Part shown: piece by piece, positions 26,886 to 62,128 of the stretch
How positions within the stretch are numbered: position 1 is the first letter of the stretch
Layout of the letters: the number at the start of each line of letters is the position of its first letter
Origin: Eucalyptus grandis
Taxonomy: Eukaryota; Streptophyta; Magnoliopsida; Myrtales; Myrtaceae
Direction: 5' to 3'
DNA: 64,000 nucleotides
Assembly: GCF_016545825.1 (NCBI RefSeq)
Contig: NC_052618.1
Coordinates: 6,439,398-6,503,397 of the forward strand
Notes under the pieces: model-generated
The model's database searches: none
The model's input: only the letters and a program-made list of their open reading frames with translations
What the model was told of the DNA's origin: nothing
Program-made: the position numbers and the translations under genes

Positions 26886-27289
26886 CATCGCCCATTCAAC
26901 ACTTTGCACATTTATTCCACAACACCAAAGCTTCACCAAGATAGATCCCCATCCCATATAACACGATCTCCCATTAACTCAGCACTTATCACAGATTTGC
27001 CACTGTCTACCTGGGACCAGCCATCAATCGCCACCTCCATCACCAACCTTTTAACGCTCATACGTTCGTGGCATGACTAAACAAGCAGATGAAGAGCCAT
27101 GCTAAGCAAACCTGTGGAGATGTATGTAACGGTTAACATTTTGGCCATGGATTTTGTGCCTCCACCTCGTCAACGACTGCTACCGAATGCAACCGGATGA
27201 CATGGTCACACAAAAATAAAAGTGAACAAAAGGAATGTGGTCAGATTTAGTCTCCTTGGAAAGGAAATCATGCTGAAATTGACCGAAAT

Positions 27290-27790
27290 TAGAGCTTCAA
27301 GCGGAACTCTAAATGAAGTCATCGTTCTTCGAGTTCCTCAGCCATAAAACGGGGGCAAGCAGTGCTCCCTGTGGCTAGCGGACTGACAGTGAAGAGAGAT
27401 GATACAGCCACGATTGGTGCCTTGGCTACTTTGGTCGTTCAACTTTGCATTAAGAATATCTCTTTAGCAACCTCCCATTCCTCAACCTTGGTGGATCCAA
27501 CAGTCAAAACAACCTCGGATCAGAAACAATTGACTTTCCTCTAGTTGAACTAGTAAGTTTGCCAACGCATGCTGATCCAGAGTTTGAAACTTGACAAATC
27601 TTCCATTCTCATCATTGATTAGCAAGTTAGCACTGACTAAATTTTTGGACTTTCTGGTGGTCATTTTGAGTGTCTATCATACCATCCCTTATCTATCCGC
27701 CAATCAGACACTGTTTCTATCTCTTGATCACTCTTGCCAGATCAATGTGAAGTACAGATTTTTCATCCTCCTTCTTCCAGAATATACGTG
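27290..27790 (-). pseudogene. NLR relic (ARC2 to first LRR)
   Basis: Read on the minus strand, frame pieces match the NLR at 36.8-40.1 kb in order: KNLYFTLI, IRDGMIDTQNDHQKV, NLVSANLLINDENGRFVKFQ, ALANLLVQLEESQLFLIRG, then VEEWEVAKEIFLMQ and AKAPIVAVSSLF. The pieces switch frame at least three times and include stops. The longest open piece is 27664-27482. It is clearly a decayed relative of the neighbouring NLR, close to a WRKY III relic. Nothing of the NB domain was found upstream. Confidence 0.75.
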
Positions 27791-28653: not shown

Positions 28654-31628
28654 TGTCACACCCCGAACCTCGAGCGCCAACATCCCACCATGGTCATGCA
28701 AATGCGACATTCCCAAGTAGTGTCGCCGACCCCATTCATTTATTATTACGCAAGCGGAACATATTATAAAACCCCTGACAATGAAATACGGGATAGAAAA
28801 GCAGGAAGCAAAACCACAACATAACACTTTCATAATTCAACATAATTACAAACAGAGGTCTACGGCCAAAAGTCTACAAAAGACCGGCTCTTAAAAATGA
28901 ACTGTCCCACGACCTACAAATCGGACACGTTCTCCAATCCTTATGACTTCACATCTGCAACTCCTCAAGGCCAACCAAAGTTATCTGGCCGCTCCGTCCA
29001 CCAGGGACCTAAAATTTTAATCCCACAATCGGGATGAGACATTGTCTCAGCAAGTTCAACCCCCTAAACCCCTATTAGAAAGAAAATACGCCATAGATGG
29101 CCTAGCCACATCACACATAAGACTTACCTCACATTAGTCTTCATCTGTAGGTTAGCACATTTTATATAATTCAACCACGTGCAATTATGATAACCAAACA
29201 ACTATGACACAATCACATTATCAGAACAATTCAATCACTTGGATCGTCTCAGCGATCAATCGACTCGGCCGATTACATGTCATTCTAGCAAATCAATCAT
29301 TGCTTCCAATCATGACCCTATAAGAAGGTTTAACAACCAGTGGCAATCATGGCCCCACTCGGCACGACCTTATTAGGTGGTAGATCTCGGCCCGATGGGC
29401 ACGACCTCTAATAGGTGGTCAATCATGGCCCTATTAGGCACGACCTCTAATAGGTGGTCAATCACGGCCCCACTGGGTACAACCTTTAATAGGTGGTCAA
29501 TTACAGCCCCACTGGGCACAACCTTTAATAGATGGTCAATCACCCCCACTAGGCACAACCTTTAATAGGTGGCCAATCAGGGCCCCACTGGGCACAACCT
29601 TTAATAGGTGGCCAATCACGGCCCCACTGGGCACAACCTTTAATAGGTGGCCAATCACGGCCCCACCGGGCACAACTTTTAATAGGTGGTCAATCACGGT
29701 CGTTCTTCCATCAAATTTTGACACTTGGAATTTTATAAAAAGAATCCCTATTTATTGCAATCACACTCCATTTGCCACATCCATTTATCAAATTCAAATT
29801 CTAAATGCACAGCAGCGATCACCACGAAATTCTAAGAAAATAAGGTCCCAAAATAATTTTCGAAATTTATTAAATAATTAAATTTATTCCGAAAATTAAT
29901 TAAATAGTAATATCCATATTGAAATCTGACTACACAAGAGTGAACGGCACGAAATTATGAGAATTTAGGGTCTTGACAAAATTTTCGGAATTTAATAAAT
30001 AATTAAATTTATTCAGAAAATAATTAAATAATATTTTAATAATTTCGAATAATAATATATTATTAAATTATTTAATAATTTCGAGATATTTAAATAAATC
30101 AAAAGTAAATTAATTTATGTCAAATTAAGGCTTATTTTAAATAAACCTACTTACCCTTAATTAAGCACACTTTAAATTAAAACACCACCTTAATCTAATC
30201 TACTCTTAAATAACCTAAACTAACAACCTAATAATACTTAACATAAACTAAACCTCCCTAAGCATAATTAACCCTCTAAGTGAGGTTTAGTGAGCTAAAC
30301 TCACCGGATTAGCGAGTCGAGCGGACCAAAATCACGGGGACGCCGAGGGGATCGACTTTCCTCAAGGCAGGTTAAGCATCCGGGCTCAGGAAGACGGCCA
30401 AAACGAGCCAAACCTTCGCTGCAATACCCACTTGGCGAGCTGCTGGTTGAGGCCAAGAAGGGGCTGATCCGGTGCTGGTTCGGGCAGAGGAACGATGGAG
30501 GAGGATCGGCGGGCGGTAGCAACGGCTTGGACGAGCTCCCGGCGAGCTGGACAGTGGCTCACGGCTGCAGCTCGGCCAAGAGCAGCGATGGATGAACGAC
30601 GAGGGCTGCGGTTGGTGCGCGTGCATGCGGGCGAAGAGGGAGCGGAGTTGGCCGGTTGTGCGGGCGAGTGAGTGCAGACGAATGGCGCCGGTGACGGCGA
30701 CATGCGGCGATGTTGAGCGACCGAGTGAGCGGTGAAGGGGTGTGCGGCCTACTGGTTCCATTCAGAGCTTTCCCTCTCCTCTTTCTATCTCTTCCCAAGC
30801 TTGAAGATGATGTTGATAGGTGCCCTTTTTGAGATTAAATCTCCACCCTCCACTTGTCAAGCTCTCATCACTTGGCTCCAACCACCATGACATAAGGTGA
30901 CGTCATCTTCCACTAACTCCAATCTCTCATAACCTTAGTCCAATAGGTTCAATTTCATTTTTCGCGCTGGCATAAAATCTTGTACAACAACTTCTTCAAT
31001 TCCACTCGATTCTCTTCCAATTGAGTCCAATTAAAGTCCATAAATTAATTCAATGTTCCTAATAAGATTTGTGACACACCATGATTTCCAATTTCAGAAT
31101 TCGATCTCAATTTCACGGTTAATTTCACTTTGGCATGATACTAGCGTGTCTTAATCTACCGGGTAGCTTTTAGAAATTTTCATGCATTTGACATGTGGTT
31201 GATCAATTCAAGCCACAATGTACATCTTTGACACATCGGCGACTTTCGATTGTCGGGGTAATCTCAAGGTTTCAAATACGAACACAGGGTACCCAAACGA
31301 TAGAAAAGTCGGTCCAGTGCCAATCGACAAGAATTGTGCGATCTGGTGGAATCACCCATACTCGATCACATGCCTCTGTCGAGTCGACCTGTCTCTGGTC
31401 TCTAATTGATTTTTAACTATGCCGTAATGACCCTTGCAGATTAACTCGGTCGAAATGTTGTTTCCCGATCAAATTCTCGAGTTCAATGCATCGAGAATTT
31501 CTTAACGGCTTTACTCGATAGACTAGTTATCACATGAGTGATCAGTTCAGGGAAAAGAACTATATGTGTGCCAATGAAATGCCCGTCTCAATTTATTAAA
31601 AATAGAATTGGAATATTGAGATGTCACA
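28654..31628 (+). mobile_element. Solo LTR B, TSD GAAAT
   Basis: 2975 bp. It starts TGTCACACCCCGAACCTCGA and ends GAGATGTCACA. It is flanked by GAAAT at 28649-28653 and 31629-31633. It lies in the same orientation as solo LTRs A and C, with conserved first ~450 bp and last ~600 bp. The middle differs: an array of ~38-bp units and a GC-rich segment (30300-30780) whose frames on the minus strand have no protein features. Confidence 0.88.
29337..29705 (+). repeat. ~38-bp minisatellite inside solo LTR B, about 9 units
   Basis: Units read about CACGGCCCCACTGGGCACAA then CCTTTAATAGGTGGTCAAT. The right-hand units are the most alike. It occupies the LTR position where copy A has a ~133-bp pair and copy C a ~48-bp array. 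Confidence 0.85.
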
Positions 31629-31633
31629 GAAAT

Positions 31634-34132: not shown

Positions 34133-35310
34133 GGAAAATTACTAAAAAAGTCCTAAACCTATTACAATTGTGCCAATTTAGTTCTGAACTTATTTTTTTG
34201 ACCAATTGAGTCCTAAACCTTTTATAATTATTCTGATCAGTCTATCCAGCCAAAAATGGCCGGTCGGCGCTGATGTGGCGGCCGGCCGGACCGGCGACAT
34301 TTTTTTAATAATATTTTATTTTTAAAAATATTTTATTAATTTTTTAATCTTTTTTTCCTGTTTTTTTTCCCTCTCCCTCCTTCCTCCTCCTCTCCCCCGC
34401 TTCTTCCCTTGGCTCCGCAACCGGCTAGAGGGGAGGGCTGGTCGGCCGCCGGGCGAGGCGGCCGGCGGGCGAGCCCTCGCCATCGCCGGGTCTGGCGAGG
34501 CGAGCCCCGCCGATCCGGCGAGGGCTCGCCTCGTCCGGCGAGGGGCTCGCGTCGCCGCGTCGCAAGGCCCTCCTCGCCGGATCGGCGAGGGCTCGCCTCC
34601 TGCCCGACCGAGAGGCGAGCCCTTGCCGATCCGGCGAGGAGGGCCTTGCTGACGCAATCGCCGACTACCACGCCAAGATCGAGGCCGAGCTCTCCAAGAT
34701 TTGGGACGGCATCCTCGGCCTCCTCGACTCCCGCCTCATCCCCGCCGCCTCCGTCGGCGACTCCAAGGTCTTCTTCCTCTAGATCGGTTCCGGACCCTTG
34801 CGAGCCCCCCTCACCGGATGGGCGAGGGCTCGCCTCGCCGGCGACCGCGAGGCGAGCCCTCGCCGAATCCGGCGGGGGCTCGCCCTGCCGTCGCTAGGCC
34901 CGCGCCGGCGGGCGAGCGAGCCTCGCCGGATCACGCGGGGCTCGCCTCGCTAAACCCGGCGACGGCGAGGGCTCGCCCGCCGGCCGCCTCGGTCCGGGCG
35001 ATCGGCTAGCCCTCCCCTCCGCCGGTCGCCGGGAGCCTAGGAAGAAGGAGGAGATGAGGAGGAAGGAGGGAGAGGAAAAAAAAAAAGGAAAAAAAAGATA
35101 AAATTAATTAATAAAATATTTCAAAAATAAAATATTATTAAAAATATTGCCGGCGCCGGCCAGCTGCCACGTCGTCGCCACCGCCATTTCTGGCCGGATG
35201 GACTGATCGGGAATAATAGTTAAAGGTTTATGACTCGATTGGTCAAAAAAATAAGTTTATGACTAAATTGGCACAATTGCAATAGGTTTAGGACTTTTTG
35301 GTAATTTTCC
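34133..35310 (+). mobile_element. Pack-MULE-like element with long TIRs, 10-bp TSD TCAACTTTTG
   Basis: 1178 bp. It starts GGAAAATTACTAAAAAAGTC and ends with the inverse GGACTTTTTGGTAATTTTCC. The arms (~170 bp each) are inverted copies, including AGTCCTAAACC and GCCAATTTAG. It is flanked by TCAACTTTTG at 34123-34132 and 35311-35320. Target duplications of 8-11 bp with long TIRs are typical of Mutator-like elements. The core is very GC-rich, with repeated CGGCGAGGGCTCGCC words on both strands, plus a piece of a 14-3-3 gene. It has no transposase of its own. The long GC frames on both strands are composition effects. Confidence 0.85.
34651..34785 (+). pseudogene. 14-3-3 (GRF) protein gene fragment captured in the Pack-MULE
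   Basis: The plus-strand frame reads [20 protein letters not shown] followed by [21 protein letters not shown] and a TAG stop. This matches the segment of plant 14-3-3 proteins around the middle helices (family pattern DYR.KIE.ELS.IC.GIL.LLDS.LIP.A..GDSKVFYLKMKGDY). 14-3-3 proteins bind phosphoserine clients in the cytosol and nucleus. Only about 45 codons are present, out of about 250 in the family. The upstream part is replaced by GC-rich repeat and the stop falls where KMKGDY should follow. It is far too short to work as a 14-3-3 protein. Confidence 0.8.
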
Positions 35311-36799: not shown

Positions 36800-39700
36800 T
36801 TAAGGGATGTCACATGTGTCAATTGGGACGAAAATACTGTCCAAGTGATCTGGCTTATGGCCGTGCCATTTCAAGTCCTCCCACCAACTCCTCTCCCCCC
36901 TGATTTTCTTCAAATGCTCACTGGAAACTTCATCAGTCGAAAGAGACTTGAGACTCGGGCAGTCATAAAAACTCAATCTTTCTAGCCTCGGTGCAATCCG
37001 TAGCCCACAGGATACATTGGAAAGTTTAGGTACGTAATGGAGAGACAACTTCTTCAAAATAGGGAGGAAATACGACGTCTCACAAACTTTGCCAGTAGAA
37101 GTTTGGCAGGTAATTAGGCTTTTGATGGCTGGGCAGTCCTCAACTGTGACCTCTTCCAAGTTGTTGAGATTATCAAGCATCTCGCTTGAGAAAATAACTA
37201 TCAACTCGGGCATTTACACAATGTCAACAGCTTGAGAGAAGATAAACATCCCTTCTGCATTGAGCCTTTCCAAATGTTTCTCAAGTTTCTCATGTAATAC
37301 ACATACAGAAACTCTAGCGATTCAAGACAAATGCTTTTGCAGTGAGATTCAGTTAAAGCCTCTTGATGAAGGGTATCAGATGCATCCACGAGCACCTCAA
37401 GCTCATTACACTCCCCCAGAACACACCACTTGAGTTGGTCCATGTTATCTATCCCTAGTTCAGACAGCTTCTTAAGATTAGCATGCCTTTCTAAGAAAAA
37501 AAGCATCTGATTGTTGCAGGATGTCCTTAATATCCGTGAAGACACCATCACCATTTGTGTACCTCAAGAATCGGTTGCACTGTTCCAGCTCGAATTCAAT
37601 ATCTGAAGGTAGCCGATTCATGATGCGGCTAGCATGATTACCAACACAAAGTCTGAATTGAGCTAAAGATGGATGCTCCATTGATTTCCTTAGCTGATTA
37701 AACTGCCTCAAAAGTTCCAATGTAGGAAAGGAGAATTTGAAAGTGCTTAACCTTTTCAAGTTGCAAACTTCAGATAAAACACCTTCAGCACATGTATCCC
37801 ACCATTCGGCATTGGCATCCACATCTAGATTCAGTTCTTCCAAGTGCAATAGAGAAGATATTACCCCATGAGGAATCACTGTTTTCGAGTCACTAAAAGG
37901 TTCAGTTCCAGAAATTGAGATTCCCAAACAAGTCAAATTAATTAAACATTCAATTTCCCTGGGAAGACTCTTAATCTTCGTCCCCTCAAGATCAAATACC
38001 TCCAGCCGCTTGAGCCCTGCAATTGCTGGCGATATCGATCTCAATAGGACACAATCATTCAAGAAGAGTCTTTTGAGGCCGACAAGTTGAGATATGGACT
38101 CCGGCAAGCACCGAATGCGGGTTCTAGACAGATTCAATACTTCTAGAGCAGGCATCTGATTGAAAAATGAAGAAGAAAGCTTTCTTAGCTTGTAATTTCT
38201 TTGCAGATATAACGACGAAAGTGAAGGGCACCTTGGTTCCTTCGGTAGCTCAGAAATTGCGGTATGCATCAAACAAATCTCTTTTGCACTCTCCCATTCC
38301 TCAACCTCTGGTGGCTCTATCAAATCCAAGCCACCTCGCATCAGAAACACACGATTTTCCTCGAGCTGAAATATTAAGTTCACTAATATATCCTGATCCT
38401 GGTCTTGAAACTTCACAAATTGCCGATTCTCATCAACTTGGAGCAGGCTAGCATTGACAAGATCTTTTAGGACTTTTTGGCCTTCATCATGGGCGTCTAC
38501 GATACCATCTCTGACCCATAGGCCTATGGCAGACTCAGATGCAATCTCATGGTAATTGTTACAAAGAGCAAGATTTTTCAAGCATCTTCTAGTTTTATCA
38601 TCTTCTAGTTGGTCAATGCAGAATCTTAATACATTAACCATAAGAGTTTCTATACCTACTTCATGACTCGTAGGTCGAACATTCAGTCTTTCAAGCACAT
38701 GTTTCCAGATTAAAATGTCATCAACATTTTGCAGTGCCCTTGCCACTAGAATAACAGCACGTGAATATGGCCTGCACATCCTAACTATTTCTCTAGCTAT
38801 GGCTTTTTAGAATAATAAACAACTTCACCCACATTCTGACGAAATAATTCGTACAGCAACAGATCATCCAAGCATATTTTCTTATCCACTTCGATTTCAT
38901 CGCACAATTGTCCTGATCTAGTCACAAAGACTATCTTGCTACCAACTGGTGGTGTTGCTTCAGGAATCCTCAATGTCTCTAGCTTCATGTGTTGGTTAAC
39001 GCCAACAAGAATGAGCAAAAACTTGAGGCCTTCCAATGCATTCACCACCGAATGTGGCATATCAACTGCATTGGCTTCAGTTAAATCACAAGATATTTGT
39101 CCAGCAATCTCCTTTTGCACCTTTTCCATGTGGCAGTTCAGAGGAACAGTAACACAGATGACTCTATCAAATAAATTTCTCAAAATTGCTGATTCCTTCA
39201 AAGCTTCAATGACAATAGCTTTTGCAACCTCATTTCTGCCATATATTCCAATTTTTTCAATGTTAGATTTTTTTATGGACTTAATGAGATGGTCGACTAT
39301 AGAGTCATATTTAATTGCACCCCATCCTTCTGATGGTCTGCCTTCTCGTTTTCCACTGCCACCTAACATATCAATTAAGGCATTGGCATCATCCAAAGTA
39401 GCATGTGAAGAACTTTCCTTTTTCATCTTTGGTATGTGTATAATATCATTATATTCTGGACTAGCTTCTATCCTCGCCTTTTTATCCCCAACTTCATATT
39501 CCGGACCTGAGCAATATGAATCAACTTCATATTCTTGTTCTGAGGAATATGAATGAACTTCGTCAGAAGCAGTGTCTTCATTTACTTCCACGGAAAAGGG
39601 TTCAACCTCTGGCTCTGCAGTGTTCCGCATTTGCAAAACTGCACTTTCCGATGTTTCTCTCCTATGATATTCTCGACTTGCTCGAATCTTCATCTTCTCA

Positions 39701-40055
39701 TCAGTGTCTTCAGATTCTGATTCTGAGCAATGTGAACCAACTTCCAATTCTGAGTAATGTGAACCAACTTCCCACTCTGAGTGTGATGAATAAGAATGAA
39801 CTTTTCCCAAAGTAGCATGAGGATCAGCGCCCTTTTTCATTATCCAGGGAAACAGTTCAGTCTCTGTATCTTGAGTGCTTTGCATTGGCACAAAATCACT
39901 TTCTGCTCTTTGCTTTTGCATGGCTACTAGTTTTTCCGCTTCACTTGACACGGTCGCATTTTCTTCTTCTTTCAGATCACTCAGCAGAGATCCATCGTTC
40001 GTGACATAGCCTGCCTTTGTGTGAAGCAAATCAATCCCAAACAACGGCTTGAGTT
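36800..40055 (-). CDS. NB-LRR (CNL/At4g27190-like) resistance-type gene with three one-base frameshifts
   Basis: The exon starts after the acceptor CTATACAG at 40056 (phase 1). Order: a copy of the acidic repeat segment (ELKPLFGIDLLHTK..AESDFVPMQSTQD); a Ser/Glu/Tyr-rich stretch with EVGSHYSELEVGSHCSESE-type internal repeats; an NB-ARC domain; then about ten LRRs and a C-terminal LRR with CPxLKSL motifs, ending at a stop at 36800. The P-loop reads IGIYGRNEVAKAIVIEAL where GxxGxGKT is expected. Kinase-2 reads LKFLLILVGVNQ and lacks the two Asp. RNBS-B GSKIVFVTRS is good. The MHD position reads VKFQDQDQD. So the nucleotide switch looks disabled. The frame shifts near 38804-38808 (A5 on the coding strand), 37496-37502 (T7) and 37208-37210 (CCC), joining pieces 40055-38797, 38779-37478, 37554-37201 and 37213-36800. 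If these are assembly errors the gene is intact. NLRs sense pathogen effectors in the cytoplasm or nucleus. Confidence 0.85.
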
Positions 40056-40633
40056 CTGTATAGAAACAAATCCATGAGAAAAAGGCACAATCATTATCAT
40101 AATCTACCCCGCGATATATAAACGTTTCTTTCCACAATTTGTCAAACACATTCCATGATAATGCAGCTACACTGATCTAAGTGGACAAGTTGAAAACAGA
40201 AAGACAAAATCAGTGCCTTTCTTTACTATAAACAAAATCACCTGGTCTCCTATTTATTGACTTTGGATCAGTTCAGAGAGAAAGAGGCCGTTTTAGCCCA
40301 AAATAAATCCCAATACACAAGAAGTGCTCCTTTGGAAACAGCAGCACTTCTAGACTTTATGCTATCTATAATAGTTATTTGATGCATATATAATTGCAAT
40401 ATTATTGATAGAAGCATCGAGATGGCAATCTCGCAAGCACAGAAAAGCTCTCGTCTCTTTACTGCTCTTTAGCTTAGCAATATGCTATTGTCTAAACAAA
40501 AAGTACTGAAAACTCATCTTTTAGGACAAAGCAAGGTTGAAATTGAATGGGCTTAAGGTTATATTAGTGCCATGTTGCAAATCTTCTCCCAAATTATTTA
40601 AAATGTAACAAATCTTTAAAGAATCAATGCTAC

Positions 40634-40863
40634 CTTGCTGATTTTCAGCAGCATGAGAACAGGGAAATAGTTCAGTCTCTGTATCTCGAGTGCTTTGCGT
40701 TGGCACAAAATCACTTTCTGCTCTTTGCTTCTGCATGGCTACTAGTTTTCTGCTTCACTTGACACCGTTGCATTTTCTTCTTCTTTCAGAAGACTCAGCA
40801 ATGATCCTTTGCTTGTGACATATCCTGGCTCTGTGTGAAGCCATTCATAGAACGGCTTGAGTT
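40634..40863 (-). CDS. Acidic repeat exon R1 (one-base frameshift)
   Basis: 230 bp between CTATACAG and CAAG|GTAGC. It codes a segment like ELKPFYEWLHTEPGYVTSKG then AESDFVPTQSTRDTETELF and HAAENQQ. The expected length is 231 (phase 1 to 1). One A is missing in the AAAAC run around 40745-40750, which brings in a TAG. No known domain is recognised; the segment is rich in Ser, Thr, Glu and Asp. Confidence 0.6.
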
Positions 40864-41435
40864 CTGTATAGAAAAAAAATTCATGAGGCAAAAGCACAAT
40901 CATTATTCATAATCTGCCCCAGGATATAAAAACTTTTTTTCCGCAATTTGTCAAACACATTTCATGATAATACAGCTACACTTATCTAAGTGGACAACTT
41001 GAAAACAGAAAGCCAAAGTCAGTTCCTTTCTTCACCAAAAACGAAATCACTTGGTCAACCCATTCATTAACTATGGATCAGTTCAGAGAGAGAGCCCATT
41101 TTAGCCCAAAGTAAATCCCAATACACAAGTGCTTCTTTGGAAGTAGCAGCACTTCTAGACTTTATGCTATCTACAATAGTAATTTGATGCATACATGAAT
41201 GCAATTTTATTGACAGAAGCATCAGGATAGCGATCTCACAAGCACAGAAAACTCTCATTCCTTTAGTCACCTTTGGCTAAGCAATATGCTATTCTAAACA
41301 AAGAGTACTAGAAAACTCATCTTTTAGGACAAACCAAGATTGAAATTGAATGGGCCAAGGTTATATCAGTGTCATGTTGCAAATCTTCTCCCAAATCATT
41401 TAAAATGTTATGAATCTTTGAAGAATAAAAGCTAC

Positions 41436-41695
41436 CTTTCTGATCTTCATAAAAGCTGCCTTTCTGATCTTCAGCAGCATGTGAAGAGGTAAACGGTTCA
41501 GTCTTTGCATCTCGAGTGCTTTGCATTGGCAAAAATCACTTTCTGCTCTATGCTTTTGCATGGCTACTAGTTTTTCTTTTTCACTTGACATTGTCGCATT
41601 TTCTTCTTTTTTCGGAATTCTCTGCAATGATCCTTTGGTCGTGACATAGCCTGCCTTAGTGTGAAGCCAATCCATCCCAAAGAACGGCTTGTGCT
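41436..41695 (-). CDS. Acidic repeat exon R2 (one-base frameshift)
   Basis: 260 bp with good acceptor and GTAGC donor. It reads WLHTKAGYVTTKGSLQRIPK, then breaks inside AESDF where GATTTTTGCC replaces GATTTTGTGCC near 41531. Near the donor it has a 24-bp duplication that would repeat GSFYEDQK. Without the break the exon would be 261 bp and keep phase. Confidence 0.6.
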
Positions 41696-42279
41696 CTGTA
41701 TAGAAAAATATTCATGAGGCAAAGGCACAATCAATATTCATAATCTGGCCCGGGATATAAAAAAAAACTTTTCTTTCTGCAATTTGTCAAACACATTTCA
41801 TGATAATACAGCTACACTTATCTGAGTGGACAACTTGAAAACAGAAAGCCAAAGTCACTTCCTTTCTTCACCCTGAACGAAATCACTTGATCACCCCATT
41901 TATTGACTTTGGATCAGTTCAGAGACAAAGAGCCCATTTTAGCCCAAAATAAATCCCAATACACAAGAAATGCTTCTTTGGAAACAGCAGCACTTCTAGA
42001 CTTTTTGCTATCTATGATAGTAATTTGATGCATATATAAATGCAATTTTATTGACAGAAGCATTGAGAGGGCAATCTCGCAAGCACAGAAAAACTCTCAT
42101 TCCTTTAGTCACCTTCGGCTAATCAATATGCTATTGTCTAAACAAAGAGTACTAGAAAACTCATCTTTTAGGACAAACCAAGATTGAAATTGAATGGGCC
42201 AAGGTTATATCAGTGTCATGTTGCAAATCTTCTCCCAAATCATTTAAAATGTAATGAATCTCTGAAGAATAAAAGTTAC

Positions 42280-42539
42280 CTTTCTGATCTTCATAAAAGC
42301 TGCCTTTCTGATCTTCAGCAGCATGTGAAGAGGTAAATGGTTCAGTCTTTGCATCTCGAGTGCTTTGCATTGGCACAAAATCACTTTCTGCTCTATGCTT
42401 TTGCATGGCTACTAGTTTTTCCTCTTCACTTGACATTGTTGCATTTTCTTCTTTTTTGGAATTCTCTGCAGTGATCCTTTGGTCGTGACATAGCCTGCCT
42501 TAGTGTGAAGCCAATCCATCCCAAAGAACGGCTTGTGCT
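42280..42539 (-). CDS. Acidic repeat exon R3 (one-base frameshift)
   Basis: 260 bp, closest to R2 and with the same 24-bp duplication. A base is missing in the A-run at 42451-42458 (CCAAAAAAG against CCGAAAAAAG in R2). The later part reads well: EEEKLVAMQKHRAESDFVPM then QSTRDAKTEPFTSSHAAEDQK. The donor is AAAG|GTAAC. Confidence 0.6.
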
Positions 42540-43121
42540 CTGTATAGAAAAATATTCATGAGGCAAAGGCACAATCATTATTCATAATCTGCCCCGGGAT
42601 ATAAAAAACTTTTCTTTCTGCAATTTGTCGAACAAATTTCATGATAATACATCTATACTTATCTGAGTGGACAACTTGAAAACAGAAAGCCAAAGTCAGT
42701 TCCTTTCTTCACCGTGAACGAAATCACTTGATCACCCCATTTATCGACTTTGGATCAGTTCAGAGACAAAGAGCCCATTTTAGCCCAAAATAAATCCCGA
42801 TACACAAGAAATGCTTCTTTGGAAATAGCAGCACTTCTAGACTTTTTGCTATCTACGATAGTAATTTGATGCATATATAAATGCAATTTTATTGACAGAA
42901 GCATTGAGATGGCAATCTCGCAAGCACAGAAAAACTCTCATTCCTTTAGTCACCTTCCGCTAAGCAATATGCTATTGTCTAAACAAAGAGTACTAGAAAA
43001 CTCATCTTTTAGGACAAACCGAGATTGAAATTGAATGGGCTAAGGTTATATCAGTGTCATGTTGCAAATCTTCACCCCAAATCATTTAACATGTAATGAT
43101 TATTTGAAGAATAAAAGCCAC

Positions 43122-43430
43122 CTTTCTGGTCTTCAGCAGCATAAGAAGAGGAAGATAGTTCAGTCTTTGTATCTCGAGTGCTTTGCATCGGCACAAAATC
43201 ACTTTCAGCAACTTGAGAGAAGGTAAATAGTTCAGTCTTTGTATCTCGAGTGCTTTGCATTGGCACAAAATCACTTTCTGCTCTTTGCTTCTGCTTGGCT
43301 ACTAGTTTTTCCGCTTCACTTGACACAGTCGCATTTTCTTGTTCTGTCAGATCACTCGGCAGAGATCCTTCATTCATGACATTGCCTGTCTTTGTGTGAA
43401 GCAAATCAATTCCAAATAACTGCTTGAGTT
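43122..43430 (-). CDS. Acidic repeat exon R4 (intact)
   Basis: 309 bp, exactly 103 codons, phase 1 to 1, acceptor CTGTACAG, donor AAAG|GTGGC. It codes LLHTKTGNVMNEGSLPSDLT, SSEAEKLVAKQKQRAESDFV and a 24-residue internal duplication (AESDFVPMQSTRDTKTEL twice), ending YAAEDQK. It is the only one of the four separate repeat exons with no frameshift. The function is unknown. Confidence 0.65.
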
Positions 43431-44010
43431 CTGTACAGAAACAAATTCATGAGGCAAAGGCACAATCATTATCATAATCTACCCTGAGATATATAAACTT
43501 CTCTTTCTGCAATTTGTCAAAACAAATTCCATGATAATGCAGCTACACTGATCTAAGGGGACAACTTGAAAACAGCAAGCCAAAGTCAGTTGCTTTCTTG
43601 ACTATAAACAAAATCACTTGGTCACCCCATTTATCGACTTTGGATCAGTTCAGAGAGAATGAGCCCGTTTAAGCCCAAAATAAATCCCGATGCACAAGAA
43701 GTGCTTCCTTGGAAATAGCAGCACTTATAGACTTAATGCCATCTACAATAGTAATATGATGCATATATAAATGCAATATTATCGACAGAAGCATCGAGAT
43801 AGCGATCTCGGAAGCACAGAAAAACTCTCATCTCTTTTGTCACCTCCAGCTTAGCAATATGCTATTGTCTAAACAAAGATTACTAGAAAACTCATCTTTT
43901 AGGACAGACCAAGGTTGAATTTCAATGGATAAGGTTATATCAGTGTCATATTGCAAATCTTCTCCCCAAATCATTTAACATGTAACTATTCTTTGAGGAA
44001 TGAAAGCTAC

Positions 44011-44107
44011 CTTTCTGATCTTCAGCAGCATGAGAACAGGGGCCCAAACCCAAACTAAGGGATGTATCAACTGAACTAGCGACAGGCTGATCAGAGATCG
44101 ATTTATC
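44011..44107 (-). CDS. Small exon with LSLGLG motif upstream of the repeat exons
   Basis: 97 bp: acceptor TACTGCTTCAG, then DKSISDQPVASSVDTSLSLG and LGPCSHAAEDQK, donor AAAG|GTAGC. It enters in phase 0 and leaves in phase 1, so it joins in frame to the repeat exons, whose ends (HAAEDQK) it shares. LSLGLG fits the LxLxL form of an EAR repression motif; that role is only suggested. The nearest upstream phase-0 donor on this strand is the WRKY exon end at 45194. Confidence 0.6.
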
Positions 44108-45193
44108 CTGAAGCAGTAGGCAATTACAACAATGTTAGTACATTCAACATGTAAATGATATTGATAGTGTTGAAATAATATCTCAAGTCCATGCAGACCG
44201 TGCTCAACATCAGATTGATCTGCCTGGAGGTCTTGCCCGTCATTCACCCAGCCAGAAGGTGGACTTGTTGCCCATAGCCCACCTGGCCAGGCAATTGGGA
44301 CATGCTCAGTGATTTTTATTTTTATTTTTTGGGGGCATAGCCCAGCAGGATTTATTCCTAAATTTCCTATGTTTTTGAGTTGTATTTTCATCTGATGAGA
44401 AGATTAAGCCGCCAGAAACATCTCAATAAAATTTCCTGTTATTTCTCTATGTTACTCAAAATGAATAGATAAGTCTTAAGTGCTAGTTTGTGAGTTTAAG
44501 TGTGCAAAAACAGGGGTTAGCAAACACTTGAGAGGTGGAGTGATTGTAATCTCCATTGTATCGCTTGATTATTGTTAAATTTTTCTGTCACTCTCCACAT
44601 AGATTATTGATCGGTCAAACTAACAATGTAATCTCTTGTTTGGTTTATTTTCATTGTTTATCTCATATCTATTTGCATATTTTTCAGCAAATAAATATCA
44701 TAGAGCCAGAGTTCCAAATTGGATAAAATAGTTTTAAAAAGATATGCAGATTTCTAGTGACTTGAGATTTGATTTGGCAGTGGCCGAGGATGAGTCACCT
44801 GCAACTTTGAGAGAGAAGAAATTTTTTCAAAAAAAAAAATAAATAAATAAATAGGCCATAGCATCTGATTGTTGAATTTAGCAAATAAGATGTTGATTGA
44901 GGTGGTAGAAAAGATCCGCGCAACAGCTTTATGATAAAGCTGGAGACAAAAAGTAATGAGTTTTAGCAAGTGCTCCATGACAATCTTTAACACCTATTTA
45001 AAAAATAAATAGTACAAAAGTAGGATAGAATGAAGTTTTGTGATTGAACCACCTCGTCACAAAGCTTCATAATTATATTTATTTAAGTATGCATGTCCAA
45101 ATAACTATAACTTGTACCCTATTAGAGGAAAACATGGGCCAGAAAGCAATAATGACGTGTGCCTCATAATTATTTTCGACTACACGAATTTAC
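44108..45193 (-). other. Intron or spacer between WRKY exons and the LSLGLG exon
   Basis: 1086 bp between the GTAAAT donor after 45194 and the TGCTTCAG acceptor before 44107. It contains an AAATAAATAAATAAATAG run (about 44838-44852) and no WRKY-like sequence. The C-terminal WRKY exon that a group I gene should have here is absent. A 138-codon minus frame (43975-44391) runs through the 44011 exon in a wrong frame and is not real. Confidence 0.45.
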
Positions 45194-46919
45194 TGGTTCT
45201 CTTACCGTTCTGCTCCCAGGAGCTAAAATCCCTCCATTCTCACCCTCTTGCTTCCTGACAATTAAGGAATGAAATGAATCAGGGACCATGGAGCAGATCA
45301 AAACCATCCAATTGTAATATAAACAAACTTCAATTTTGCACACAAGCAAACAGAACTCCATCCAGCTAGCAACTTACCATCTCTTGGGATCTGGTTCATT
45401 GCCGATGACCGAAGGGGAAGAGTTTTCTGGGGTTGCAGAGTCTACTTGCGAGGAGCCATGCGCAGAAAAAGCAGGGTCATTGATTTTGGGGCGGCGGGAT
45501 TGTAGACCGGGACTGCAAGAGATGGCACGGAGGAGGCGGAGGACGCCAAGGATCTCCGGATGGCCAGAGGCTTAGCGTGGTTATGGGTTCCCTTGTAGAC
45601 AATCTCGGTAATCTGGCCATCCAGAGATCTCTCAACCTTCTTCTTGGTAGGGCATTCAGGATGAGTGCACTTGTAATAGTGCCAGGGGTTTTCGCTCCCC
45701 TTCACCTGCTTCTGGCCGTATTTCCTCCAATTGTAGCCATCGTCAGATTTCCTCTGCTCTCGCATGGACTGAGCCTGAGACTGAAAATTATCGTAATCGG
45801 ATCGGTTATTGGCGTTGGTCTGGAATGGATTGAGTTCGGATTTCACAGCGCTCTCGTCAGAAGGACGGGAATCATCTCGTTTGATGGAGCGATAATCGTG
45901 AGGCAAAGGGAAGAGGGATGAGCATATAAAGAAAGTGTAGACATACCTGCTGCTTGGCGTTGGTCTGGAAAGTGAAGGTAGAGTAATTTGCGTCTTCCCT
46001 TTTAGGGATCTGCTGGTAACTGTCGGGGGACTTGCTGCGGGGGGAGAGAGAGAGAGGAGGAGATACCTTGGAGTCCAAGAAATCGGCAGGGCTGAGACCA
46101 GGCGGCATGGTGGGGAAAGCAGAGGGGCTCAAGGGGAGGGCGCTAAGCAGCAGGGAGGGCACGGAGGAGGCGGAGGACGCCGAGGATCTCCGGGTGGCCT
46201 GAGGCTTAGGGTGGTTATGGCATCCCTTGTAGACCATCTCGGTAATCTGGCCATCCAGAGATCTCTCAACCTTCTTCTTGGTAGGGCAGTGAGGATGAGT
46301 GCACTTGTAATAGCTGCTGGGGTTTTTGCTCCCCTTCGCCTGCTTCTGGCCGTATTTCCTCCAGTTGTAGCCATCGTCAGTCTGCTCTCGCATGGACTGA
46401 GCCTGAGACTGAAAATTATCGTAATCGGATCGGTTATTGGCGTTGGTCTGGAATGGATTGAGTTCGGATTTCACAGCGCTCTCGTCAGAAGGACGGGAAT
46501 CATCTCGTTTGATGAAGCGATAATCGTGAGGCAAAGGGAAGAGGGATGAGCATATAAAGAGAGTGTAGACATACCTGCTGCTTGGCGTTGGTCTGCAAAG
46601 TGAAGGTAGAGCCATTTGCGTCTTCCCCTTTAGGGATCTGCTGGTAACTGTCGGAGGACTTGCTGCGGGGGGGGAGAGAGAGAGGAGGAGATACCTTGGA
46701 GTCCAAGAAATCGGCAGGGCTGAGACCAGGCGGCATGGTGGGGATAGCAGAGGGGCTCAAGGGGAGGGCGCTAAGCGGCAGGGAGGGCGGGGAGATGGAC
46801 TTGAACTTGGGAACGCCGGACCCACGGAGAGGGTCGTCCTCCAGTGCGGAGGCGAGGAGGGATGACAAGGAGCTCGCTCGAGGGTCCAAGCTCCCCGTGC
46901 TGGCCGATGGTGAGGCCAT
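45194..46919 (-). CDS. WRKY33-like group I gene with duplicated N-terminal WRKY exon and no C-terminal WRKY domain
   Basis: ATG at 46919. Exons: 46919-46575 (115 codons; Ser/Pro-rich, [20 protein letters not shown], the SP-cluster typical of WRKY33), 46480-45947 (178 codons), 45852-45378, 45254-45194. Introns are 94, 94 and 123 bp. Exon 2 holds [20 protein letters not shown] with C-x4-C and HNH zinc ligands. It then runs without break into a second copy of exon-1 sequence. Exon 3 holds a second domain ([15 protein letters not shown], again C-x4-C and HNH). A one-base loss at CCCCAAAA (45484-45491) shifts its end; the other frame then gives NEPDPKRW, continued across the splice by KQEGENGG, then [12 protein letters not shown]33 relatives bind W-boxes mainly through the C-terminal domain, which is missing. 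The acceptor of the 94-bp introns (GACGAG|AGC) is my choice, made on phase. Role inferred: a defence regulator derivative. Confidence 0.8.
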
Positions 46920-47908: not shown

Positions 47909-48429
47909 TATGGGTTTTGACTGAATGGCGGCTGAACCTATGGGCTCTCTCTCTCTCTCTCTAGTTTATATTGCAAAATTCTGATTACCATATGATGCGA
48001 TGGCGCCCCTTCGATATCCCTGTGCTCCCTCTTCCAATCTGCTAGATCGAGAAAAGAATCATCAAGACTTGATTTCTCTCCAAGCAAAAGCACACACAAC
48101 CACCATGTAAATCGGCAGGAAAATGATGGAGAATGCATATCAAGGATGTGCGCTTCCCCTTTTTGAAAAGGTATAGCAATTAGAGGTGAGTGTTCCAGGT
48201 TCCATTACTCAATTTGTATCTTCATTGCTCAAGGCATGACATTGAGTTGTGTTATATCCATAGATTTATCGAAATAACAAGCATTTCTAAGAAGTATTAT
48301 TGATCCTAGTATTCCCTGCTTACCTTTGTATCTACTCATCGCATCGTCAACTCCACGAATTTACGGGAGTCGTCATCGGATCTTTGCACGCGCTTTCTAG
48401 CCAAGCAACCTTGGACATTTCAATGAGTG
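47909..48429. other. Intergenic DNA upstream of the MITE
   Basis: It contains a (CT)n run at 47945-47963 and a W-box TTGACT at 47917-47922. A 66-codon minus frame (47938-48138) has no motif. Confidence 0.35.
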
Positions 48430-48906
48430 CGCCTATAGTTCCTGAATATGAAGAGTGGGAAATATATTAATGACAGCTAGATATAAAGGACAAAGAAACA
48501 TAATGAAACTTGTGTGCACTCATAGCCGAGGTAATCCCAAAGTGCTCAATTATATGTCAAACTTTAGTAGGCTAAGGAAGAGAAAAGTGATAGCAACGTA
48601 AGAAGCTGCCAAACTAAACTAACTGTTAATAATTGAGGAAAAATGGAAGAGATCTATCTGTTCCAATCACATAACCGGGGACAAGGGGACAAGTATCGAG
48701 TTTTTTCCTTTTAACGTTTTCAAGGATGTGGCTCATCTCAAGTCCACCAATGCAACATGCTGAGGATGAATTTGGACTAGGAGTGAGAAAGGCAAGAACA
48801 TTGAACGGGGGTTTACTTTGAACAAAGGAATAATGTTCTAGTGAATCTTTGGGATGATGGAGCTTCAAGACTTGAGAATTAGAGAACTGATCGTCTCTAA
48901 ACTCAC

Positions 48907-49034
48907 CTTGGATACTTGGCTCCAAGAATTTCCTTCTGATCTACTTCCTCCAACTGAACCCATCATCAGGTGGCAATTCGAATTTGGGGGCTGGGATGAC
49001 TCAGACCTTATATAATAGTTGTTCATCCGACTTT
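48907..49034 (-). pseudogene. WRKY group III exon 2, third copy, broken
   Basis: The acceptor CTATAG before 49034 and the R-type donor CCAAG|GTGAGTT after 48907 are kept. The frame has a TGA after DEQLLYKV. The heptad is broken by a one-base loss (AAGTAGATCAGAAGG where AAGTACGGTCAGAAGG is expected), giving WRK and a stop. No exon 1 or zinc-ligand exon is present. This is a dead copy. Confidence 0.8.
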
Positions 49035-49281
49035 CTATAGTAAAAAGGTTCCTGCAGTAGTAATCTACGAAATTCCTGGAGCAAAGAACATCATCTAACT
49101 TGTTAACCCCATAACAATTGCTGTCAGTCGAAAAAGAAAAGAAAAAGCAAAGAAAATTTTTTTCCAGACTTATTGCTTAATCACATACGTACCTTCCGGA
49201 AATACTTTAACTCAAGTGGTGGTGGCTGAAGAATTTCGACCACAGAGGAGGATAAGATATATCACCGGAACAAAAGAGAAA

Positions 49282-50819: not shown

Positions 50820-51200
50820 TTAGTAAGACGAAGATGAGAATAAACTTTTTACCTGTCTTGGTAATTTCAAGTGATTTGGAAAGAAAGTAATCTGCGAGAA
50901 TCCAGCTCCACAAGGGCTGCCTTTATTTTCATTGCCATAGCCGAGACCTTTTTCGCTTTCTCCTCCTCCTCCGGCCGAATGGATCCCAGTGAATTCATCG
51001 ACAATTTCCAGAAAGTCGCCACTACCGCCGTCGATGGTTGTCGTCCGAGCTCGAGCAGATTTCTTGAATTTGGCGCTCTGGTCTGATTTCGATAACCCCA
51101 ACCTTCGTTCCTCGAGCGTTCTCTGGCTGGTGTTGATGGTCTTATCAAGATTGATCTTGTCTTGTTCTGGCAATTCCAGCCTCCGTTCTGTGCGGGGCCC
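50820..51200 (-). other. Unrecognised coding-like stretch
   Basis: GC-richer than its surroundings and open in two minus frames (51173-50820, 117 codons from MPEQDKINLDKTINTSQRTL; 51148-50867, 93 codons with SLGSIRPEEEEKAKKVSAMA) and one plus frame. The first frame has a charged N-terminus and TTIDGGSGDFLEIVDEF. The second ends in a helical Lys/Ala/Leu-rich part. No family is recognised and the correct frame is unclear. It may be a gene fragment. Confidence 0.3.
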
Positions 51201-52757
51201 GCTCGTTGCTCAATTTCCCTCGATCAACGCGTCGATTTGCCTCTCTTTTCTACGTATTTGTGTGTGTTGATTCCCCAAAACTTGTTGAGAAGATGAGCCT
51301 CAGAGAGCATATACCTCACAGGAATGGTAGATGAGGCTGATAGCTCTTGAACCAGACAAGGATGGTTGACTTCGGTCCCTAACGCGTTAAATGAATAATC
51401 AAATATGATCAACCTCCTATTATTCAATAATTATGAAAAGTACAACAAACACGAATATATAGACACGACTTCCAAAAAGTTCCCTCACTTTATGTCGAAA
51501 TAACATTAGTTTGCAAATAATATCTTTAAATACAAATAACACTTGAAAATTCAGAATTGTAATAAATACGGCCTTGCAGTGCAACTACTTCCGCTAAGGT
51601 GTGAGTCGGCTGAGTCGGTCCTTACACGACATAGACGTGGATGTAACGGCTTCCGGCTTATTGTGGGGACCGATACCATTAAATGTACCGCTAACTTTTG
51701 CCTCACTCGGTCTTGTTGCGTGAACAGGATGAGCTCGAGTGATGTAATTCATCCTCAAGCTTATTATTGGCCTTTTTTAATGGTCAAACGGCCGATATGC
51801 TCACATGGTTAGATCTGCTCACTAGCATGGTAATTACATCCAAATACTATGACTAAATTGCTCATAATTCATAATCTGCATTGGTAGGGCTTATAACCAG
51901 TCTTCATAACTCATAATCTTCATTCTGATGGGAGATCTGGCTTTCCTGTGAAAATTGGCATAGAGATGCTATGGAAGTAAACAAATGAATATGATTTTAA
52001 AAACCCATAGATTATAATTAGGTGAAGCAATGCATGGCTCATTCTTCTCTCTTCTCCGTTTCAACATAATAGCAACTCTTTTCCTTGTCCAAAATCATGC
52101 ATGTGTGAAAAATCCAAGGGAATCAAGGAACTGCAAGAGATGTTGGAATTGAATGCTTAAACAGAGGAACTAGAGACAGAAGCAGAATTATATGATGGAA
52201 AGCTTGCTCGTCCTAATTCCATGATTGCTCCTCCGCTCCATCGACTCTGGTTTGCTTCTGATGTTCCCCATGATCATAACCCAAAGAAGGAAGAAGCAAA
52301 CAACACACGCGCTAACTACGAATCACCAGACGCCATAATAAGTTGGCAAAGAACAAGTTTTTGTAAAAGAGAGAGAGCAGTGACCACCATTTCTCACCAA
52401 AATAGATCGGTTTTGTTAGAGATAGAAGGGTGTTGGAAAAGAGTAGGTACCTGCATTCAGTAGATGTGAGCCCAACTCACATGCACCCTTTGATTGAGAC
52501 CCACCTCATCCGACAGAACCTTTGAATTGGCCATACATACATTGGGCTTATCTAAGAATTTTTCATTAGAAGAGAAGATATTGCCCGACACGTCGAGGCA
52601 TAGTCCTAAAACTCACCAATTTACATTCACATGCTAAGGTGCATGAGGGAATCTATGTAATTGTAGAGGTGCCATTTGGTCTTACAAGTCAACGTCAATG
52701 GATCGCCCACTGATCGCTCGAGTAGCATCAAACGTGTGCCATGTTTCTTATTGAAAA
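51201..52757. other. Intergenic DNA
   Basis: Nothing recognised. Short frames at 51543-51812 and 52221-52463 (plus) and 51224-51427 (minus) have no motif. Confidence 0.35.
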
Positions 52758-54731: not shown

Positions 54732-57700
54732 ATGAGGAGCGCAACTAAAGAATATGAAGGTTGGACTTGCAAGGTTAAGGCGATTGAACAAGAAGCACTC
54801 AAATTGAAAAGCAAGCACAATAAGAGATCAGCCATGCTTGGAGATTCTCTTAGTTTTGGTCATGTGCAAATTTCGGCAAGCATGTGGTCAAGAAGCGTGA
54901 AGAATTACAAGCCCTACTATAAGAGGCAGATATTGATAACGGAGTGGCCTGTGGGAGTCATAGATGCCTTCTAAGAGTGAGGAATGGTGGTTCTGGAGAG
55001 AAAAATTTCAAAAGAATCGAAGTATAGGGAATGGTGGGAATTGGAAAAACTATAGTCTTGCATAAGTTGAATAGAAATAAAAGGGTTGTGAAAATGTTTG
55101 ATATTTTAATTTGGATATGGTTATTGAACGCCTAGACTGTTGAGAAAGTGCAACATGCAATCACACAACGTCTGAAGCTAAAAGTGGAGGGTGGAGTCAA
55201 CGCAGTTGAGACTACTCAATCTTGTATCGAGCAAAGTGAGAGGCATGTGATACTTGCTTCTCCTTGATAATTTTTGGGATTCCTATGATCTATAGGAGAT
55301 AGATATTTCTAACAATACAAGAACAAAAAGGTGATATCTACTAGTAGATTTTGTGATTTGTGCTATGAGTCAAACGACAATGAGCTTGTAAATATGAAGC
55401 ATTTTCCCCATATGGATGCATATATAAAATGTTTGAAAAAGTTGGTCTAAGTATGAACAATCCAAATATTTATACTTATAGCACGACCATGGTTAGAGAG
55501 TGTGTTACTTTGCATGATCAATAAATTGGTGAGAACTTTTAGGAAGAATGACATTATTCACCCTCAGGGAGATCAATTGAAGAGGTTGCGGAGATGACCC
55601 ACTATCAACATCCAAGGCATTGATGAAGTGCCTGAGTTTTTGAACTATGATGATTTAGATAGGGAGGATAAAAAGGTTTGCTTTCTGTAAGGAGCATTGT
55701 TTATCGAAGAGTGTGACATCTTTGTTGATTATTTAGTGGAATGTTGAAAGTATAAGGATTTCTCCACAGTTTGATGAGTTTTGTGATGTAGACGACAAAG
55801 AACACAACATATTGCATGATCTAACCACGTGCCTTTGGTAGAGAAAAGAGAAATGAAGAAACATGTTTGAATGAACAATGTACTTTGTAATAGGGCCAAT
55901 ATAATTTCATCATAAGATATCATAAGTTTTTGGCAAGAGATTGCGAGGGGCCAATGAAGACCGAAAGGAAAAGGTATGGGCATTTGCAAGTCGAATTTCT
56001 TTTACGGATAATGTCTTTTCCAATCTACTGATAAATCAAATTGCAGAAACTTTTCAATTTTACTCCTACAAAGAAATTGTGTTTAGATTGTGACCCTTCA
56101 TAGCTTCTTCTTGTCTATGCAAAGACTCCGAGTCTTAAACTTTCATGGTATCACAAATGCATCCCTTTCACCTTATTTTCTTGCTTGACTGGACTTAGGG
56201 CATTCTACTTGAATTCTTGCACGCGTTTAATAGAACTCCCTTTAAGCTTGGAGGCAATGGTGCATCTAGAGGTGCTAGACATCTGACGCTCCAAAATCAT
56301 CTATATACCTATTCAGGGAAAAGTGCCAAAAAAGTCCTAAACCTTTTGCCTTTGTGCCAATTTAGTCCTAAACCTTTTTTTGGTGCCGATTCAGTCCTAA
56401 ACCTTTTTAAGTTGTGCCAATTCAGTCATTTCCGGCCAATTTTCACCGGATTTTGCTGGCGGGCCTTGGCCGGGCTGACGTGGCATGATCGGCACCGACG
56501 TGGACAACTTTTAATAATTTTGTAATTTTTAAATATTTTTAAATACTTTTAATATTTTTTTATTTTTTTCTTTTTTCTTTTTCCTCCGGCCGGTCGCCGA
56601 GGTCCAGCGACCGGCCAGAAGCGACCGCCGGCGAGGGCGAGGCCGACCTCGCCGGATCTGGCGAGGTCGAGTCTCGCCGGCCATGGGCGGGGCCGGCAGG
56701 GCGAGCTTCGCCCATGGCCGCCTCGCCGGATCGGGCCATGGGCGAGGCTCGACCTCGCCTCGATCCGGCGGGCGGCGGGGTGAGCCTCGCCCATGGCCTG
56801 ATCTCGGCGGCGGCCATGGGCGAGGCTCGCCCTCGCCGGATCTCGGCGAGGTCGAGCCTCGGGCCATGGGCGAGGCTCGCCTCGCCGGATCCGCGAGGCC
56901 GGCGAGGGTGAGCCTCGCCCATGGCCCGATCTCGGCGGGCGGCCATGGGCGAGGCTCGCCCTCGCCGGATCTGGCGAGGTCAAGCCTCGCCGGCCCTCGC
57001 CCATGGCCCGATCTCGGCGAGGTCGGGCGAGGCCGGCGAGGCTCGACCTCGCCGAGATCCGGCGAGGCGAGCCTCGCCCATCGCCCATGGCGGCGAGGCT
57101 CGACCTCGCCGAGATCCGGCGAGGTCGGCCTCGCCCTCGCCGGCGATCGCCTCTGGCCGGTCGCCGGACCCCGGCGACCGGCTGGAGGAAAAAGACAAAA
57201 CTAAAAAAAATAAAAAATAAAAAAATAAAAAAATAAAAAAAATAAAAAAATATTTAAAAAAAATAAAAAAATATTTAAAAAAAAAAATATTAAAATATTA
57301 TTAAAAGTTGTCCACGTCAGCGCCGATCAGGCCACGTCAGCCGGCCGGCGTCTAGTCAGCAAAATCCGGTCAAAATTGCCGGAAAGGACTAAATTAGCAC
57401 GACTTAAAAAGGTTTAGGACTGAATTGGCATCGAAAAAAGGTTTAGGACTAAATTGACACAAAGGCAAAAGGTTTAGGACTTTTTTCGCACTTTTCCCTA
57501 CCTATTCAAATTGGATGTTATTAATGCAACTGAAATGTTTATGCATGTCATTGTCAGTTTTTGACGCTGGAAACCCAATCTCCAAAGGTGATTTCAAGCA
57601 TTTCTTTATTAAAGAACTCTAGATTGAAACACTCGGTGGTCTAATTAGGTCGCGAGGCCCATCATGAAGGAGGTTTCTATCTTGAAAATGTTGAGTTCGT

Positions 57701-62000: not shown

Positions 62001-62076
62001 AAGAAAGCTATAGATGCGAAGATGAAATGCCCGACTTATTTAATTGAAACCAGAATTGGAAAATCGGGATGTCACA
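59055..62076 (+). mobile_element. Solo LTR C, TSD TAAAC
   Basis: 3022 bp. It starts TGTCACGCCCCGAACCTCAA and ends TCGGGATGTCACA. It is flanked by TAAAC at 59050-59054 and 62077-62081. Same family and orientation as A and B. A GC-richer middle (60420-61130) differs from A and B, and its overlapping frames on both strands have no domain. Confidence 0.88.
59665..59830 (+). repeat. ~48-bp minisatellite inside solo LTR C
   Basis: Three to four units of CTCACCAGAAGCTRYCGCAA then TATTCAATATAGTATACTATA. It lies at the same relative place as the unrelated arrays in copies A and B. Confidence 0.8.
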
Positions 62077-62128
62077 TAAACTCAACAAGCGCCGGGACCA
62101 CTTGTGAGGCTAGCTACCATAGTCTAGA

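Follow-up and report, generated by a model that had tools for sequence, protein, structure and literature searches.

Among the decoys of plant immunity, few have been studied as closely as the WRKY domains integrated into nucleotide-binding leucine-rich repeat (LRR) receptors (NLRs); how such domains are acquired and exchanged has mostly been inferred. Eight R protein-WRKY groups have been distinguished, including RW8, with the order WRKY(III)-NB ARC-LRR, from Theobroma cacao (Rinerson et al., 2015, PMC4350883, in the passages cited here), and WRKY domains occur at the N- or C-terminus of coiled-coil NLRs (CNLs) (Kroj et al., 2016). VQ motifs have been listed as integrated domains in nine species, E. 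grandis not being one of them in the cited passages (Sarris et al., 2016, PMC4759884), and in wheat and rice in a Haynaldia paper (PMC8832786, likewise cited in part). The cited passages of the survey of Christie et al. (2016, PMC4709456) report no WRKY-fused NLR in E. grandis. Here we describe a window of 64,000 nucleotides of Eucalyptus grandis DNA (assembly GCF_016545825.1, contig NC_052618.1, forward-strand positions 6,439,398 to 6,503,397; coordinates below are positions within it), in which a truncated WRKY33-like gene lies ahead of an NLR. We give a probability of about one half to the reading that this is a locus of a Myrtaceae NLR family with a WRKY-integrating front, in which the truncated WRKY33-like gene splices to the NLR and would supply a decoy in intact copies.

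The coordinates and the Pfam matches agree with the layout proposed in an initial annotation of the window: WRKY exons, a small exon encoding LSLGLG (44107-44011), four repeat exons and an exon carrying NB-ARC and LRR (from 40055), head to tail on the minus strand. WRKY exon 1 (46575..46919) contains the start ATG and the leader of WRKY copy A, equals residues 1-115 of the NCBI E. grandis 'WRKY24-like' protein (P0001) and ends with the donor CAG/GTATGT (the slash marks the exon end). Exon 2 (45947..46408), bounded by splice sites, encodes WRKY domain A (~46378-46211; Pfam WRKY, E 5.4e-24) and then the in-frame leader of copy B. Exon 3 (45378..45780) encodes WRKY domain B (~45744-45577; Pfam WRKY, E 5.1e-25) and the inter-domain region, with the donor ATG/GTAAGT. 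Over its first 381 residues, the spliced product was identical to P0001 (381/381); the exons do not form one open frame, a stop falling at residue 381. The two copies originated in a 628-bp tandem duplication, and both domains show the group I zinc pattern and a WRKY33 N-terminal-type sequence. A Pfam scan of the window found no C-terminal-type WRKY domain, and the coding homology stops before its place, so the locus departs from a group I factor such as WRKY33, with its N-type and C-type domains. The N-terminal group I domains first proposed are therefore two in number, both of the N type.

WRKY33 homology ends in exon 4 (45206..45254), where the donor ACG/GTAAGAGA falls within the codons for TVREP; the motif TVREPR is found in 80 of 117 WRKY33-like matches. 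This exon end is common to an E. globulus WRKY-only model (P0002) and to isoform X3 of E. grandis LOC104454830 (P0003). Because both models leave there, the exon-4 donor is probably ACG/GTAAGAG, with 45206 as the last base, and the donor CCA/GTAAAT of the initial annotation was rejected as written. The LSLGLG exon (44011..44107) is entered in phase 0 and left in phase 1, as first described, and matches residues 147-178 of P0003 at 96.9%. Phase 1 is also taken by the NB exon and by the repeat exons, which begin and finish in it; the decayed ones can therefore be skipped. The repeat units are spaced 803-891 bp. R4 (43122..43430) has an open frame; in R3 (42280..42539) the frame is broken and runs into a stop before the donor; R2 (41436..41695) has a frame shift before the donor; and R1 (40634..40863), also broken by a stop before the donor, has a close relative that is used in P0003 and in the E. 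grandis protein P0122 (EUGRSUZ_G00259). The long exon (36803..40055, with its stop at 36802-36800) comprises a repeat copy that reads through, as R4 does, an acidic linker, NB-ARC (Pfam E 1.2e-11) and LRR (LRR_8, E 4.8e-15; LRR_RPS2, 1.9e-09).

To place the locus among its relatives, we used two protein searches, and all counts below are among the matches listed. The NLR-only search scored the 7990 candidates sharing most words and gave 18 proteins, 14 of them from Myrtaceae; a joined WRKY and NLR query scored the 7978 candidates sharing most words and gave 76 proteins, nine from Myrtaceae. The pieces of the window NLR were slightly nearer to the E. globulus NLR-only model P0121 (98.4-100% identical) than to P0122 (97.1-99.3%). 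An LRR tree of 18 rows grouped the window with these two (99/98 support), and the enclosing group comprised 11 Myrtaceae rows, the window among them (99/100). Its NB-ARC P-loop is altered, reading GRNEVAKA where a canonical CNL has GxxxxGK[T/S]. The P-loop was found in 12 of the 14 Myrtaceae relatives, as GRNEVAKA, GRNEVGKA, GKNEVGKA or GKNESGKA, with Ala after Lys in all 12, a position usually held by Thr or Ser. By Pfam scan alone, the Rx_N coiled-coil of canonical CNLs had no match in the window pieces or in P0122, P0124, P0125, P0129, P0131, P0133 and P0134.

The join itself is represented in P0003, where a WRKY33-like exon is followed by GSRT, DKSISD..LSLGLG, a repeat exon and the NB exon. 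P0003 and P0122 share 155 residues unbroken, after which P0003 diverges, ending at 376 residues; because of this shared run we took the two as one locus or alleles, close to and not identical with the window. In the window, a one-base length change in exon 3 (45495-45475) breaks the frame, and past it the other frame stays open for 606 codons across four junctions (503 without R4). We favoured a fusion because P0003 joins such exons and because this long open frame follows the break.

WRKY labels were carried by three of the 18 proteins from the NLR-only search, P0124 (E. grandis), P0125 (Rhodamnia) and P0131 (Syzygium), all with WRKY domains that show the zinc pattern of group III (as defined in the cited part of PMC9229891). 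Pfam placed WRKY, NB-ARC and LRR in that order in P0124 and P0125, which is the RW8 order; in P0131, WRKY precedes NB-ARC and a short LRR (LRR_8), so that annotated proteins of the same NLR family unite all three parts. P0131 holds two group III WRKY domains, the first of which may come from an adjacent gene that the annotation joined to it. At the level of gene models, a Myrtaceae NLR family with an N-terminal WRKY domain exists, and at that level P0124 contradicts the earlier null result for E. grandis. Both WRKY and NB-ARC labels were present in eight of the 76 joined-query proteins (P0124, P0125, P0142, P0169, P0197, P0198, P0201 and P0202). Five of the 14 Myrtaceae relatives have a VQ-like leader, reading V-Q in P0125, P0129, P0133 and P0134 and V-D in P0124. 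A single model, P0125, combines VQ, a group III WRKY domain, four WRKY19-type zinc-finger stretches (PF24906), NB-ARC and LRR. An AlphaFold2 model of P0133 (14 sequences) had a mean predicted local distance difference test score of 38, with zero residues at or above 70.

We also observed remnants of an older front end on the minus strand, and the WRKY33-like piece sits between them and the NLR. The remnant of the older first exon (50853..51203) encodes a VQ-like leader, 91% identical to P0124 residues 2-118, with ACG where P0124 has Met; it reads V-D for V-Q and gave no match to the VQ family (PF05678). A second remnant (48906..49228) covers the linker and the first half of a group III WRKY domain, with a stop inside WRKY, and corresponds to P0124 residues 118-175 (44%, gapped) and 177-188; the zinc-finger exon (48357..48437) corresponds to residues 191-217 (70%). 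Given these stops, the window holds no working RW8-type arrangement. On the simplest reading, event order included, a VQ-WRKY(III)-NLR gene would have come first and been stripped of its front, and a truncated WRKY33-like gene would have taken the place of that front. The relatives suggest that WRKY parts come and go at the front end of such receptors. The older front has a third copy, also broken, at 25397-27726 on the minus strand; it retains the linker and half of a group III WRKY domain (78% identity to P0124 across 60 residues), and an LRR fragment with 73% DNA identity to 38265-38551 comes after it. Bases 1-588 match 25397-26001 at 84% identity, and portions of them match 48517-48972 at 86-87%.

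A broader version, which we regard as possible rather than probable, holds that the NLR lineage swapped its N-terminal domain, from a VQ-like motif with a group III WRKY to a doubled group I N-type domain, by truncation of a WRKY33-like gene whose T-V-R-E codons were turned into the splice donor. The VQ motif and the WRKY domain are known to bind each other as separate proteins; in the sister genes, where a VQ-like motif shares one receptor with a WRKY domain, the pair could form a built-in latch.

On the favoured reading, the older front, a VQ-like exon with a group III WRKY domain, would have decayed. The place between its remnant and the NLR would now be taken by a truncated WRKY33-like gene that has its own start and carries its first WRKY domain twice. 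The truncation would have taken away the C-terminal WRKY domain and left the WRKY33 codons for T-V-R-E reading as a splice donor. Transcription would then cross the junction, and the RNA would be spliced in phase from that donor to the LSLGLG exon and on to the NB-ARC and LRR exon, so that an intact copy would yield WRKY(N-type)-acidic linker-NB-ARC-LRR under the promoter of the WRKY gene. By analogy with RRS1, the WRKY part would be an integrated decoy that baits effectors acting on WRKY factors; the altered NB-ARC would serve as the sensor, and signalling would fall to a partner NLR. W-boxes 5' of the ATG were rejected as evidence; there is one per strand in 1.5 kb, which we estimate to be about the chance number.

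The WRKY domains themselves have diverged. Of 117 WRKY33-like matches, 112 retain an Arg in front of x-Y-Y-K-C and the other five lack the searched motif; copy A has Ser at this position and copy B has Trp, a bait-like change. Altered WRKYGQK cores are present in P0124 (WRKYDQK) and P0125 (WRKDGQN), and such core changes have been described in several NLR-WRKY fusions (Sarris et al., 2016, PMC4759884, cited part). Between copies A and B we counted 26 nonsynonymous and 3 synonymous changes, with 2 changes in 166 bases of intron. Fisher tests of nonsynonymous changes gave p 0.003 against the intron and p 0.002 against synonymous sites and intron together. The excess is suggestive of diversifying selection, short of proof; exons may instead mutate faster than the intron owing to their base make-up.

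Several observations weigh against a working fusion that serves as a decoy. The frame from ATG 46919 stops at residue 381 (stop 45444-45442), before the NLR, as a result of the one-base change in exon 3, and three further one-base breaks lie in the NB/LRR exon (38814-38796, 37507-37486 and 37218-37202). This copy as sequenced does not unite WRKY, NB-ARC and LRR in one product and probably makes no full-length one; P0001, which is identical to it, is WRKY only and ends at the same residue. In P0003, Pfam finds WRKY alone, and the model ends before NB-ARC. E. globulus has two annotated genes, the WRKY-only P0002 and the NLR-only P0121. The single gene models joining WRKY to NB-ARC for which the initial annotation called were found with group III domains (P0124, P0125 and P0131); a WRKY33-like domain joined to NB-ARC was found in 0 of the 9 Myrtaceae proteins from the joined query. 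Only P0125 of the five VQ-like leaders passes the cut-off as a Pfam VQ match (E 0.01). Both WRKYGQK cores of the window are intact, and P0131 keeps WRKYGQK in both domains. Against synonymous changes alone, the nonsynonymous excess was not significant (p 0.11). The WRKY-NLR fusion first proposed accordingly gains from the splicing of P0003 and from the WRKY domains of the three group III relatives, and loses from the frame breaks here and from the early end of P0003.

Each break in the NLR exon changes the length by a single base, within or next to a run of 3 to 7 identical bases; runs of at least 4 make up 6.7% of this exon and runs of at least 3 make up 16.9%. Because of this, and because the pieces are 98.4-100% identical to the intact P0121, a consensus error in the NLR exon is possible. 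The assembly of this genome is presumably long-read based, and consensus errors of that kind are a possible source of the one-base breaks in otherwise near-intact exons, at or next to short runs: those in 36803-40055, the one at 45495-45475 and that of P0003, which likewise leaves the P0122 frame after the 155 identical residues.

Alternatively, the locus comprises two separate neighbour genes, a short WRKY-only gene ending at ~45083 or 45442 and an NLR starting at ~44600 or within the repeat exons; we consider this rather unlikely. An alternative last exon (45083..45118, minus), encoding GTSYSYLDMHT and a stop, matches the C-terminus of P0002, and an alternative first exon (44565..44600, minus; MWRVTEKFNNNQ) fits residues 1-12 of P0121, whose start equals 44600. 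P0001 is consistent with this view as well, as are P0122, P0126, P0127 and P0128, which begin at methionines within the repeat or linker. The initial finding of no start codon in good context between the WRKY and NB exons is weakened by the E. globulus start at the place of ATG 44600 and holds insofar as that exon would require a GC donor in the window. Moreover, P0003 spans the gap, and related loci hold WRKY and NLR in one model.

That both halves are pseudogenes, with any joined transcript being noise, we judge improbable. Decay would account for the broken frames of R1-R3, of the WRKY exon and, at three points, of the NB/LRR exon; for the dead VQ-like and group III WRKY front; and for the six of nine repeat pairs involving R1, R2 or R3 in which the exon is more divergent than the intron. 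However, the NLR breaks are single-base changes in pieces nearly identical to an intact gene; the nonsynonymous divergence of the WRKY copies exceeds that of the intron, unlike the prediction of plain decay; and R4 differs from the NB exon copy less in the exon (8%) than in the intron (12%). It is very improbable that the WRKY part was retained for itself as a dominant-negative or altered transcription factor with the NLR a bystander: both cores are intact and WRKY-only products are annotated in both species (P0001, P0002), but the conserved Arg is gone from both domains, no C-terminal WRKY domain is left, and P0003 and the group III fusions go unexplained. Plain chance neighbours were rejected, since P0003 and the group III relatives tell against them.

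Outside Myrtaceae, proteins from Reevesia, Punica, Castanea and Dionaea (P0139, P0140, P0141 and P0142) are annotated as combining WRKY domains, in varying order, with LRRs akin to those of this NLR family; those of Punica and Dionaea add a kinase and that of Castanea a TPR part, and an NB-ARC match was found in the Dionaea protein alone of the four. Their LRRs were the closest non-Myrtaceae ones compared (285-401 bits vs at most 162 for others), in a sample biased by a query that held WRKY, and the fork order among their rows in the LRR tree has poor support. These joins are either recurrent fusions or merged gene models. A special WRKY link of this NLR subfamily outside Myrtaceae was not established, given the WRKY-biased query and the differing domain orders.

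Elsewhere in the window, two G+C-rich copies of a 2.5-kb element (6858-9327 and 15296-17811) are 87% identical and have internal repeats of ~440 bp. An inverted repeat at 34133-35310, with arms of ~510 bp that are 82% alike, resembles a fold-back element, and part of it recurs at 56316-56439. Three copies of a ~600-bp dispersed repeat (5167-5794, 31046-31632 and 61458-62080) are 75-76% alike. ARAGORN and Rfam (gathering threshold) gave no matches in the window.

Eucalypts are major forestry trees, and here one short locus keeps a dead former domain, a newer domain and a plausible splice donor together, so that the steps of the exchange can be read and tested. The open-licence literature, taken without supplementary tables, yielded no account of an NLR with both VQ and WRKY, nor of a Myrtaceae NLR fused to a group I WRKY domain; the domain turnover and a donor made of WRKY coding bases were likewise not found there. 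Within that literature, the novelty claimed for the arrangement holds for its group I version and not for an N-terminal WRKY as such, which is known from cacao RW8 and from Kroj et al. (2016). RRS1 (AtWRKY52) is likewise an NLR with an integrated WRKY domain, explained by a decoy model; it is, however, a TIR NLR with a C-terminal WRKY, whereas here WRKY lies upstream of NB-ARC and Pfam scans found no TIR. AtWRKY19 (RW3) shares a group I WRKY ahead of NB-ARC, and its type of zinc finger (PF24906) recurs in P0125, but it has a PAH, a C-type WRKY and a kinase domain (PMC4350883, cited part), none of which was found here; Pfam scans gave two N-type domains, no C-type and no PAH. The R protein-VQ of strawberry, VQ13, combines a VQ motif with NB-ARC and LRR, and the cited part of its source (PMC6427031) lists no WRKY, whereas P0124 and P0125 have VQ-like and WRKY parts together. 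In Melaleuca quinquenervia, also of the Myrtaceae, five genes over two haplotypes encode NLRs with WRKY (PMC10720953); the main text of that paper, in its cited part, gives neither WRKY group, domain order nor VQ. The Dionaea protein P0142, annotated as kinase-WRKY-NB-ARC-LRR, resembles the window in that NB-ARC is preceded by a WRKY33-like domain of the N type (77% identical to copy B), and differs in its leading kinase, its intact P-loop GRGGIGKTS and an LRR 37% identical to that of Corymbia P0123. RW8 of cacao likewise places WRKY ahead of NB-ARC and LRR (cited part of PMC4350883); its WRKY domain is of group III, whereas the window has two group I N-type domains, and P0124 and P0125 match its group III domain and add a VQ-like leader.

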